From: Pseudomonadota bacterium
Lineage (GTDB): Bacteria > Pseudomonadota > Alphaproteobacteria > Rickettsiales > UBA3002
Length of the DNA: 64,000 nucleotides
Reading direction: 5' to 3'
NCBI GenBank assembly: GCA_040384265.1
Contig: JAZKJM010000005.1
Coordinates: 363,166 to 427,165 of the forward strand
Made by a program: the position numbers and the translations under genes. Positions 6,460-25,569 of this stretch are shown here, piece after piece. Positions within the stretch are counted from its first letter, which is position 1. The number at the start of each line of letters is the position of its first letter. The notes under the pieces are model-generated. The model saw only the letters and a list, made by a program, of their open reading frames with translations, was not told the origin of the DNA and did not search any database.

Positions 6460-7785
6460 ATGACCCAATTTTTCAAACCCACCCGCACCAACCATGGCAC
6501 GCGCGTTGCGTATACGAATGCGCGGTTGATTGACCCGGAATCGGGGCTCGACCAGGTGGGCGGGTTGCTGACCGAGGGCAACAAAATTGCCGATTTTGGG
6601 GCGGGACTGTTCAACAACGGCACGCCCGAAGGCGCGCAGGTGGTGGATTGCGGCGGCCATGTGCTGTGCCCGGGACTGCTGGATATTCAGGTGCATTTCC
6701 GCGAGCCGGGGCAGGAATTCAAGGAGACGATTGAAACCGGCTCCAAATCCGCTGCTGCGGGCGGGGTGACGACGGTGGCGACCATGCCCAACACCAAACC
6801 GGTGGTGGATGATATTACCGTGCTCGCCTTTTTGCAGAAGCGGGCGATGGAGACGGGCTATGTGAATATTCGCCCGTATGCGGCGATCACCAAGGGCCAA
6901 AAGGGCGACGAGCTGACCGAGATGGCGATGCTGGTCGAGGCCGGTGCCTGCGGCTTTACGGATGATGGGCTGCCGGTGATGAACGCGCAGATCATGCGCC
7001 AGGCGCTGACGATGGGCGCCAGCCTCGGCGTGCCGATTGCGCAGCATGCGGAGGACCATAACCTCAGCTGCGGCGGCTGCATGAACGAAGGCTGGGTGGC
7101 CACCAAGCTGGGCTTGCGCGGCATTCCCAATGTGTCGGAAGCCGTGATTGTGGCGCGCGATATTCTGCTCGCGGAGCTGACGGGCGGGCAATACCATGTG
7201 CTGCATATCAGCACGCGCGAGGCGGTGGATCTGGTGCGCATGGCCAAGAAAAAAGGCCTGCGGGTGACGGCGGAAGTGGCGCCGCACCATTTCACGCTGA
7301 CGGATGAGGCGGTGATCGATTACCGCACGTTTAGCAAAATGAACCCGCCGCTGCGCTCGGAAGAAGACCGCATCGCGCTGATCGAGGGCCTGCGTGATGG
7401 CACGATCGACGCCATCGCCACCGACCATGCGCCGCATGACACCGAATCCAAACGCGTGCCGATGGATGTGGCGAGCTTTGGCATTGTCGGACTGGAAACC
7501 ATGCTGGCGCTCTCGCTGCAGCTGGTGCACGACAAAACCATGAGCCTGCGCGACGTGCTGGCGGCGATGACCTACAAGGCTGCCGATATTATCCATGCGG
7601 ATGCAGGCCGCCTGCGCAAAGGCGCACCGGCGGATCTGGCGCTGATCGACCCGAACCTTGTCTGGAACATCATGAACGAGGACCTGAACAGCAAATCGAA
7701 GAACTCGCCGTTCGATGGGCGGCAGGTGAAAGGCCGCGCACTGCGCACGGTGGTCGGTGGCGAAACGGTGTATATCCATGGCTGA
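6460..7785 (+). CDS. pyrC: Dihydroorotase, class I
   Basis: Cyclises carbamoyl-aspartate to dihydroorotate, the step after PyrB. 441 residues of the amidohydrolase fold. Visible metal and substrate motifs are VHFREPGQEFKETIETG near residue 77, the metal-ligand QHAEDH, HISTREAV, and DAIATDHAPH near 325. The usual first ligand pair DxHxH reads DIQVH, so the first His is Gln. A DxQVHFREPG form is, to my knowledge, typical of one alphaproteobacterial branch, so the protein may still be active. pyrF follows with an eight-base overlap. Confidence 0.95.
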   Translation: MTQFFKPTRTNHGTRVAYTNARLIDPESGLDQVGGLLTEGNKIADFGAGLFNNGTPEGAQVVDCGGHVLCPGLLDIQVHFREPGQEFKETIETGSKSAAAGGVTTVATMPNTKPVVDDITVLAFLQKRAMETGYVNIRPYAAITKGQKGDELTEMAMLVEAGACGFTDDGLPVMNAQIMRQALTMGASLGVPIAQHAEDHNLSCGGCMNEGWVATKLGLRGIPNVSEAVIVARDILLAELTGGQYHVLHISTREAVDLVRMAKKKGLRVTAEVAPHHFTLTDEAVIDYRTFSKMNPPLRSEEDRIALIEGLRDGTIDAIATDHAPHDTESKRVPMDVASFGIVGLETMLALSLQLVHDKTMSLRDVLAAMTYKAADIIHADAGRLRKGAPADLALIDPNLVWNIMNEDLNSKSKNSPFDGRQVKGRALRTVVGGETVYIHG

Positions 7786-8491
7786 GCCACGCAACCCGAT
7801 TATCTGCGCCATCGATACCACGGATGTGGAGGACGCCACGCGGGTGACGCGCGAGGTCGCCCCGCATGTGGGCGCGGTGAAGCTGGGGCTGGAGTTTTTC
7901 ACGGCCAATGGCGCGGCGGGGGTGACGCAGATTAATCGCCTCGGCGTGCCGGTGTTTCTTGACCTGAAATTCCATGACATCCCCAATACGGTCGCCAAGG
8001 CCATCGCAGCGACGGCTGGGCTGAACATGTTTATGATGACGGTGCACACCACCGGTGGCCGGGCAATGTTGAAGGCGGCGATCGATGCCTCCGACCGCGT
8101 CGCGCAGGTGACGGGCAAGGAGCGCCCGCTGGTGATCGGGGTGACGCTGCTGACCAGCCTCGACCAGGACGATGTGGCGATTCTCGGCTTCCGCGAAAAT
8201 GTGCAGGATCAGGTGATCCGCCTTGCCGACCTTGCGCAAAGCGCAGGGCTGGATGGGGTGGTGTGCTCGCCGTTCGAGATTGCGCCGCTGCGCAAGGCCT
8301 GCGGTAACGAGCTGACACTGGTGGTACCCGGCATCCGCCCGGATGGGTCGAGCAGCGACGACCAGAAACGCATCCTGACGCCCAAAGATGCGCTCAAGCG
8401 CGGCGCGGATTACCTGGTGATCGGCCGCCCGATCACGCGCAGCGACGACTGCGCGGGCGCGGCCAAGGCGATTGCGGATTCGCTAGCCTAA
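7778..8491 (+). CDS. pyrF: Orotidine 5'-phosphate decarboxylase
   Basis: Makes UMP from OMP, the last step of pyrimidine synthesis. 237 residues of TIM-barrel type with the catalytic motif DLKFHDIPNTV at residue 61, CAIDTTDVEDA at the N-terminus, and the phosphate-binding PGIRPDG and GADYLVIGRPIT near the end. The start at 7778 lies in ATGGCTGA, overlapping the pyrC stop, which implies translational coupling. A start further upstream (7757) is possible but less usual. The 3' end overlaps the convergent gene at 8483 by nine bases. Confidence 0.97.
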   Translation: MAEPRNPIICAIDTTDVEDATRVTREVAPHVGAVKLGLEFFTANGAAGVTQINRLGVPVFLDLKFHDIPNTVAKAIAATAGLNMFMMTVHTTGGRAMLKAAIDASDRVAQVTGKERPLVIGVTLLTSLDQDDVAILGFRENVQDQVIRLADLAQSAGLDGVVCSPFEIAPLRKACGNELTLVVPGIRPDGSSSDDQKRILTPKDALKRGADYLVIGRPITRSDDCAGAAKAIADSLA

Positions 8492-9595
8492 CGTTTTTTC
8501 TGAAGGGGTTTCGCGGCGCGCGGTTTCGGCGGCGGCGAAGCGATCGACACGCCCGGCGGCGCGCTGCATGCGCTCGGCGGTGAGCGCGGTGACACGGCTG
8601 GCGACATGCTGCGCGATGTCGGGCGCGCTGAGGGTGACGCCCTGCTGGGTGGCCATGAAGCGGCTGACATCTTCCAGCACCGCCTGCTGCACTTTCGGCG
8701 ACTGCATGGCGATGACGCAGGCGGCAGCATCCTCCAGCCGCGCCATATCCTGGGAGGCGAAACCGTGGCGGGTGATCTGGTTGCGCGAGGAGGAAAACAG
8801 CATCGCGTTGGAGAATAAATACGCGGCCAGCTGCAGGCCCGAGGCATAATGCGGTTTGAAGCTGGTGCTGGCATAGGCCAGATCGCGCCCCTGAAAATCC
8901 TGCCACGCCTGCAAGGCGAGAAAGCCGTTATTGACCGTGTAAAGCGCGGCGGATGCGCGCAACGGGTGGTCTTTGACGGAGGCGATGGCGTGATCCAGCC
9001 AGCCGGCGTTGGGGTCCTGCGGCGCGGGATTGGGGTTTTCCTTCACCAGCAGGCCGGTGAGCGCCCCTGCCCCGACCAGCGCGCCGATCCAGAATTTGCT
9101 GGAGACATTGGCGAAGGCCGCTTTGGTGAGCGCCTTCGGCAGGAGGGTTTTGCCAAGCTCGCTGTGTTCCTTCAGCCCGCCATGCAGCAACATGGATGCG
9201 CCGAGGGCATACATGCCGTTGAGCAGCTCGGAGGGGTGCTCATACATGAACTGCTCGACATAGCTCCAGGCGGTTTTATCGGCCAGCAACGCGGATTGGG
9301 CGCGGGCTTCATCGGGAATGGTGACGCCGTTTTTCTTGAGGTGTGCTTCCAGTTTCGAGGCCTGGATCTGCAATTGTTTTTCAACATCCGGGTTGCCGAA
9401 ATGGGCGGCGGCGAGGCCACCGGCGAACCATGTCATTGCGCCGCCAACACTGCTGCCCCAGCCCTTGCCGCGCGCGATCCCGGCCGCGGCCATGGCGGCA
9501 TCGCCAGCCATATAGCCGACCCCGGCCGCTTTCAGGGTTTTATCCTGCCAGCGGTCCTCGTGCTGTTTCGCTTCTGTCGCCGTTTCGTCGCTCAC
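8483..9595 (-). CDS. Conserved hypothetical membrane-associated protein
   Basis: I do not recognise this 370-residue protein. It starts with a GTG. The N-terminal 30 residues are charged. Then come small-residue-rich segments that could cross the membrane (about 45-65, 135-155, 165-185), a stretch with many Ala, and an Arg/Ala-rich C-terminus. The repeated Gly/Ala-rich helices (YMAGDAAMAAAGIARG, WIGALVGAGALTGLLV) suggest a membrane or helical-bundle protein. It is monocistronic, convergent with pyrF and divergent from the symporter gene. No catalytic motif was found. Confidence 0.8.
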   Translation of the reverse strand: MSDETATEAKQHEDRWQDKTLKAAGVGYMAGDAAMAAAGIARGKGWGSSVGGAMTWFAGGLAAAHFGNPDVEKQLQIQASKLEAHLKKNGVTIPDEARAQSALLADKTAWSYVEQFMYEHPSELLNGMYALGASMLLHGGLKEHSELGKTLLPKALTKAAFANVSSKFWIGALVGAGALTGLLVKENPNPAPQDPNAGWLDHAIASVKDHPLRASAALYTVNNGFLALQAWQDFQGRDLAYASTSFKPHYASGLQLAAYLFSNAMLFSSSRNQITRHGFASQDMARLEDAAACVIAMQSPKVQQAVLEDVSRFMATQQGVTLSAPDIAQHVASRVTALTAERMQRAAGRVDRFAAAETARRETPSEKTLG

Positions 9596-25115: not shown

Positions 25116-25156
25116 TGGCCTGCTCCAACGATCCCACGATGACAGGGCGAACGGGT

Positions 25157-25288
25157 GGCCGGGGAGCTTTAGGTCGGTTTTCAAGCCGCTACCGTGATCT
25201 TTAGACACCGCGCCGTATCCAGTGTGGTTTGCCAACCGTGGATACGAACGCGGGGATGTCCTGAACATGCATCACGGCCTCCCCGGCC
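25157..25288. ncRNA. Rod-like folding element, possible RNA
   Basis: The ends GGCCGGGGAG and CTCCCCGGCC pair perfectly. Inside them pair, in order, CCGTGAT with ATCACGG, CCGCG with CGCGG, and GTATCCA with TGGATAC, closed by GGTT...AACC. One strand also has a side hairpin CGGTT-TTCA-AGCCG. The result is a 132-base rod with bubbles, similar in outline to 6S RNA, but no known consensus was recognised. The strand is undetermined, and neither end has a T-run of its own. Confidence 0.45.
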
Positions 25289-25293
25289 ATAAC

Positions 25294-25321
25294 AAAAAAC
25301 CACCAGCATTGCTGCTGGTGG
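25294..25321 (-). terminator. Intrinsic terminator of the candidate small RNA
   Basis: Stem CCACCAGCA / TGCTGGTGG with a four-base loop. On the minus strand it is followed by TTTTTT. This orientation shows that the transcript runs leftward. Confidence 0.8.
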
Positions 25322-25536
25322 CCGGGTGTTCAAATCCGCTAATCGACACGGCACGATAGCCTTTAGCCTTGCGGCCTGGACATGCGCCACCGTCACCCGG
25401 CCATAAAGCCTGAGTAAACGGCATCTCGTGACACCTATCCTATGAATCGGGAAAGGCATCACCTGACGACTGATGCCAGCCGTCGATTAGCGGGATTTGA
25501 GGCCCGGCCTTGCACAGGAAACCCATGCAATGCAGG
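25294..25536 (-). ncRNA. Candidate structured small RNA of unknown family
   Basis: On the minus strand a TTGACG box (25564-25569), a 17-base gap and CATCCT (25541-25546) precede a transcript-like region. It is closed by a 28-base inverted repeat, arms 25482-25509 and 25320-25347 (GGCCGGG..TCAAATCC..GCTAATCGAC), with only small bulges. Inside are a GGCATCA/TGATGCC hairpin and a GGCC-GCAA-GGCT tetraloop hairpin. It ends with a strong hairpin and six T. I could not match it to tmRNA, RNase P, SRP, 6S or common riboswitches. It follows a small lipoprotein gene on the same strand. Confidence 0.6.
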
Positions 25537-25540
25537 ATTG

Positions 25541-25569
25541 AGGATGCGGCATTTCGTATGTCGCGTCAA
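25541..25569 (-). promoter_or_regulatory. Promoter-like box before the candidate small RNA
   Basis: TTGACG and CATCCT with 17 bases between them on the minus strand, about 32 bases ahead of the long closing stem. The -35 box is good and the -10 box is weak. Confidence 0.4.

Follow-up and report, generated by a model that had tools for sequence, protein, structure and literature searches.

Phages and other mobile elements use small RNAs of the C4 and CI kind to silence an adjacent gene. Another small RNA, sRNA-Xcc1 (Rfam RF02221), has reportedly been studied as a virulence-linked regulator that acts in trans. It measures 88 nt by RACE and is seen on Northern blots (PMC2996969), and in Xanthomonas integrons it lies upstream of symE (PMC12444791). 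The C4 RNA of phages P1 and P7 has three stems, is cut by RNase P at a GG and carries a' and b' loops that act on the ribosome-binding site (PMC5320573); for this, PMC11143913 cites Hartmann 1995. The CI RNA of satellite P4 pairs with seqA upstream and with seqC downstream (PMC4825925). An acceptor-like stem followed by RCCA, which pairs to RNase P RNA, is the signature of an RNase P substrate (PMC12710915).

We analysed a window of 64,000 nucleotides from a bacterium of the Rickettsiales (contig JAZKJM010000005.1) and consider it likely that an RNA on its minus strand is the precursor of a C4/CI-type antisense RNA related to sRNA-Xcc1, which would be processed into a repressor. In the RNA, at 25509-25294, a long and imperfect inverted repeat is accompanied by inner hairpins and by a 3' hairpin followed by a U-run (Table 1). 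Folding of the minus strand from 25540 to 25294 gives -124.6 kcal/mol against -86.4 ± 4.9 kcal/mol for shuffled sequences (z -7.8; 0 of 200 shuffles as good). The original prediction had described an undescribed structured small RNA closed by a near-perfect 28-nt stem. Both arms are present (25320-25347 and 25482-25509), but the repeat is imperfect, with 79% ungapped complementarity and more when bulges are allowed. The inner hairpins, including one with a GCAA loop (25376-25365), and the terminator-like 3' hairpin with a T-run at 25321-25294 were found as described. The promoter-like boxes TTGACG and CATCCT are also there and are kept in a second genomic copy (TTGACT-17-CATCCT), but they are too weak to be called by a consensus promoter scan.

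A search of the region 25294-25569 against Rfam returned no family at its gathering score. This agrees with the earlier failure to fit the RNA to tmRNA, RNase P, SRP, 6S or riboswitches, all of which we reject as identities because none has an Rfam match. The only lead was sRNA-Xcc1, which matches the 3' half below its cut-off of 53 bits (25.1 bits, E 0.066). The RNA is real, conserved, structured and outside strict Rfam, but it is not wholly undescribed, as its 3' half shares the architecture of sRNA-Xcc1. The c4 families gave no match at E up to 10 in the window region, nor did they match the element at any of 20 related loci. At L213:2890-2958, about 1.3 kb from an sRNA-Xcc1 locus, c4-2 scored 34.8 bits, below its cut-off of 41.

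Table 1 Parts of the window RNA and of its immediate neighbour
Feature	Positions	Strand	Basis
Promoter-like boxes TTGACG (25569-25564), 17-nt spacer, CATCCT (25546-25541)	25541..25569	-	sequence; second genomic copy
5' hairpin P0, TTGCATGGG/CCTGTGCAA	25510..25530	-	fold; hairpin at the same place in relatives L011, L013, L014
Long stem P1, 5' arm ('seqA'), copy of the antisense target	25482..25509	-	inverted repeat; P1 covaries (n=10 sequences)
Variable middle: hairpin, GGCAUC loop able to pair with a downstream GAUGCC (possible pseudoknot), UUUAU before the predicted cleavage site	25403..25481	-	
Predicted mature RNA, 87 nt, GG to ACCA	25316..25402	-	RNase P start at 25402 inferred; equals start of sRNA-Xcc1 model
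Acceptor-like stem, 5' strand GGCCGGGUG	25394..25402	-	fold and covariation
Core arm P4 (internal loop GCAUGUCCA/AAAG, conserved) and tetraloop hairpin P5	25353..25393	-	
Hairpin Pb presenting the b box (loop 25347-25340)	25336..25351	-	stem length against shuffles
a box AUUUGAA, single-stranded in the predicted mature form	25329..25335	-	fold of the 87-nt form
Acceptor-like stem, 3' strand CACCCGGCC; in the precursor pairs with the P1 5' arm	25320..25328	-	fold and covariation
ACCA, the RCCA motif read by RNase P RNA	25316..25319	-	
3' hairpin CCACCAGC/GCUGGUGG and U6, terminator-like in the window copy	25294..25321	-	
Second related RNA ('RNA2'): after UUAU, 135 nt that include the same acceptor-like stem, the core loop GCAUGUUCA/UAAAG and an ACC end	25154..25292	-	fold

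Eight more copies were found by BLAST in related genomes, and a structure and covariance model were built from ten sequences. In the precursor alignment 84.9% of base-pair cells hold standard pairs, compared with at most 46.1% when the partners are slid. Thirty-two pairs are changed on both sides, with G-U as well as Watson-Crick pairs kept, and none of 500 shuffles has as many; this count leans towards the model, since the structure was derived from the same ten sequences, a weakness that the later tests do not share. The compensatory changes proposed as a check on the long stem were found in this alignment. The core arm P4 is 100% paired with six of its eight pairs changed on both sides, the GGCAUC loop pairing of the middle region is formed in 86.7% of cells with five of six pairs changed on both sides, and the internal loop GYAUGUCCA/AAAG is strongly conserved. 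The 3' hairpin is 93.8% paired in relatives, many of which have no U-run, as would suit a leader.

With the covariance model, copies were detected in 84 of the 263 genomes searched in the order and in 56 of 385 in the class, many of them holding several. Carriers named by an exact core pattern include Micavibrio, Sphingomonas, Rhodopseudomonas, Devosia and Caulobacter. Copies were also observed on contigs of MAGs labelled Nitrospiria and Verrucomicrobiaceae (L181, L183), which may reflect transfer or mis-binning. Tandem copies lie 0.3-1.5 kb apart in L119, L049, L116 and L224, with the downstream genes duplicated in L119 and L116.

The closing stem of the original prediction is real and covaries, but it is best read as a precursor stem that competes with a tRNA-acceptor-like stem. 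This second stem, of 9 bp, cannot form at the same time as the long stem's outer part. Although it played no role in model building, it is 91.4% paired over 63 aligned copies, with double changes in eight of nine pairs and no shuffle as good. RCCA follows it in 86 of 113 copies, its first position is the start of a GG in 77 of the 113, and the preceding nucleotides are most often UAU. The RNA so delimited has a median predicted length of 87 nt. Within it, the Pb stem averages 5.4 bp over 113 copies, against 4.1 bp in shuffles (standard deviation of the mean 0.1). The sequence features that mark C4-like RNAs as RNase P substrates, namely the acceptor-like stem, the GG start and RCCA, are all present, and on these grounds RNase P should release an RNA of about 87 nt. 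The mapped 5' end of sRNA-Xcc1 would correspond to the acceptor G, because the Rfam model starts there. The energy model favours the precursor fold over the alternative by about 24 kcal/mol, so that processing would need co-transcriptional timing or help.

When the order was searched with RF02221, 34 of 105 genomes had matches, and in 10 these exceeded the cut-off. Among the matches listed, 37 fall within full-length matches of the same orientation and begin about 73 nt from their start; as these were chosen for overlap, the figure is a count and not a rate. L194, a full-length relative from a genome of the same family, scores 58.0 bits, above the gathering cut-off of 53, while the second copy scores 39.7 and the window copy, with its 25.1 bits, stays below the score for membership. 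In structure, start and length the window copy does correspond to sRNA-Xcc1: the match spans model positions 1-87 from the predicted cleavage site, and the predicted mature RNA is 87 nt long. RF02221 loci in other proteobacteria have the same 5' half, some 100 nt upstream, and a gene follows after about 25 nt; by eye, the encoded proteins include SymE-like, BRO-like and Rha-like ones. At these loci the antisense strand, seqB, fits its own 5' half much better than those of other loci (n=42, residual -9.75 kcal/mol, sd 0.60). The nested matches, the shared 5' half and this specific fit together indicate that RF02221 describes the inner part of a larger RNA. The family to which the window RNA belongs is proteobacterial, large and little described, and the database entry sRNA-Xcc1 covers one fragment of it. 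A literature search largely of open-access papers found none linking sRNA-Xcc1 to RNase P processing.

The RNA is not an isolated one: its many relatives are mostly leaders of a downstream gene and not free-standing. Among 113 distinct copies with a called neighbour, 73 have a same-strand start codon within 80 nt downstream and 11 an opposite-strand gene. The downstream proteins are mutually unrelated (n=75, 33 Pfam families, the commonest being HTH, in five), which rules out one protein family as a constant partner. Tyrosine (phage) integrases lie upstream in 7 of 81 neighbourhoods, and restriction-modification and TIR genes are frequent neighbours. From these downstream starts, unrelated proteins and neighbours we conclude that the element usually serves as a leader to accessory genes located in mobile or defence regions. 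Near the RNA in L034, L141, L044, L046, L056 and L109 we observed SIR2-like, TIR, type I methyltransferase and AAA genes, mostly divergent, which suggests placement in defence islands. At many of the loci L204-L233 the middle region carries a hairpin and U-run before the cleavage site, for example CCGCACCCGUCAGACCAUGCGG-UAUUUUU; judged from its sequence, this is a possible internal terminator, which the long stem could control.

The complementarity of seqB to the Shine-Dalgarno (SD) region was assessed for the gene downstream of each copy and for those of all other copies, with row and column effects removed. Across 62 loci the residual for a copy's own SD region was -2.19 kcal/mol (permutation sd 0.35, p 2e-5), and across 26 RF02221 loci it was -5.0 kcal/mol (sd 0.57, p 2e-5). 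The controls were not significant (coding sequence p 0.08, seqA p 0.09, core p 0.71). Another 23 loci with nearby starts, collected later by the exact core pattern, gave a weak result (residual -0.64, sd 0.48, p 0.09), their start codons being assigned by a simple rule, some loci being near-duplicates, and complementarity common to the whole class going uncounted by this test. GGAGTT, the complement of a conserved AACUCC, occurs in the SD windows of 22 of 112 downstream genes and at 8 of 900 background starts; where GGAG is present the figures are 22 of 56 and 8 of 98. Boxes matching the ribosome-binding region, as in C4, are therefore found in the family, weakly in the later 23-locus set, and not for the window copy.

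An element that precedes genes in this way could also be a cis-acting leader or attenuator, riboswitch-like, whose long and acceptor-like stems are two conformations of one transcript and which releases no small RNA. Two mutually exclusive, covarying stems that share a 3' strand are what such a switch would show, and so are the gene that directly follows the 3' hairpin in most copies and the strong conservation of the internal loop. The downstream genes have no common theme, unlike those of a metabolite switch, and with proteins so unrelated a metabolite riboswitch is improbable. RCCA, the UAU-GG junction and the 88-nt RACE product (PMC2996969) fit processing and not switching alone, and we regard a leader of this kind as unlikely.

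For a C4/CI-type precursor we propose the following mechanism. Transcription would start just upstream of the precursor, and in the nascent RNA seqA, the 5' arm, would pair with seqB, the antisense strand, in the long stem. In the alternative fold the 9-bp tRNA-acceptor-like stem ending in ACCA would form, and RNase P could then cut after UUUAU at 25403/25402 to yield the RNA of about 87 nt. The released RNA would expose seqB as a hairpin loop (the b box) together with a single-stranded a box. In most relatives seqB is complementary to the SD region of a gene starting about 15-35 nt downstream, and the mature RNA would block translation of this gene both in cis and in trans. It could also keep related incoming elements silent.

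The window copy departs from this arrangement, as it has no adjacent downstream gene and is followed instead by RNA2, a related RNA with a long P5 arm and without a 5' half of its own, directly downstream of the first. Its second copy, 63 kb away in the same genome and 82% identical, is part of a 429-bp duplication of 85.5% identity (window ~25576-25154 and L106:6862-7288). RNA2 is 99% identical between the two genomic copies and the first RNA differs by about 18%; the differences are concentrated in paired arms, both arms of the inner long stem having changed together, as if specificity had been exchanged. A third, partial copy at the end of another contig (L107:20-195, G000 contig C2 end) has a tyrosine integrase gene 155 nt away; the contig ends without its 3' acceptor strand, so that the copy is truncated or misassembled. 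Judged by eye, genes beside the second copy (L106 ~7220-8700) encode products like a small lipoprotein and the membrane protein VirB6/TrbL, and the copy possibly lies within a conjugative region.

A search of the window copy's own genome with its a'-b' target pattern returned only the copy itself. A BLAST match to the antisense part was rejected as a target in trans because it falls in the T arm of an apparent tRNA gene (L004). DNA similarity searches against phage and plasmid records gave no match, and a phage or plasmid origin was rejected on this basis; a 17-nt stem pattern matched only unrelated sequence in viral contigs, which we judged to be chance. The window copy is probably an orphan whose neighbouring target gene has seemingly been lost; such orphans may be relics or may act on incoming elements. 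A more speculative and rather improbable idea is that orphan copies in tandem with a second RNA store immunity as antisense RNA, silencing leader-linked genes of mobile elements that enter with matching boxes, and that paired replacement of both stem arms changes their specificity.

With its own promoter-like boxes and terminator and no gene behind it, the window copy could also be taken for a free-standing regulatory RNA acting on many host targets, the role originally proposed for sRNA-Xcc1. This is quite improbable, given that relatives precede the very gene whose SD region they specifically match and that the box-pattern search of the genome produced no candidate target. Least probable is a folded single-stranded DNA site at which mobile islands recombine or integrate, for which the upstream integrases, the one beside the third copy and the restriction and TIR neighbours could speak, as against the preserved G-U pairs, the retained promoter boxes and SD complementarity, the detection of sRNA-Xcc1 on Northern blots (PMC2996969) and the lack of support for an integron-like attachment site from cassette boundaries at the element.

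If the window RNA is a C4/CI-type precursor, the orphan Rfam family sRNA-Xcc1 gains a testable mechanism, and self-silencing leaders of this type would be far more widespread than the c4 models reveal. Genomes of Alphaproteobacteria and of other Proteobacteria would carry them in many copies, placed before accessory genes with nothing in common and close to integrases and defence genes. As each copy predicts its own target, networks of mobile-gene silencing could be readable from sequence.

Compared with known systems, the window RNA shares with sRNA-Xcc1 the acceptor-like stem, the arm with internal loop and tetraloop hairpin, the antisense strand, the start and the length, and the RF02221 loci share the 5' half and the complementarity to the downstream gene. 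The internal loops differ (GCAUGUCCA/AAAG in the window, GAAUACAAUACC/GGGAAUA in sRNA-Xcc1), the Rfam model lacks the 5' half, and sRNA-Xcc1 has been described as a trans-acting small RNA, not as an RNase P product. With C4 (RF01695, c4-2 and c4-a1b1; clan CL00128) it has in common a three-stem RNA beginning at a GG, predicted to be cut from a larger transcript, and two boxes for sites at or near the ribosome-binding site. It differs from C4 in giving no covariance match, in its core, in the long 5' half complementary to the antisense strand and in family targets beyond antirepressors. Like P4 CI it would be an antisense RNA from an untranslated leader with complementary sequences on both sides, whereas P4 CI has a different sequence and acts by transcription termination, the downstream target here being on the SD region. 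The Group 1 small RNAs of Acinetobacter baumannii are likewise C4-like, present in many copies per genome and processed from longer transcripts (PMC5320573), but they match the Rfam C4 motif and the present family does not. The window RNA is best explained as a variant of the C4/CI kind that lies outside the Rfam c4 families.
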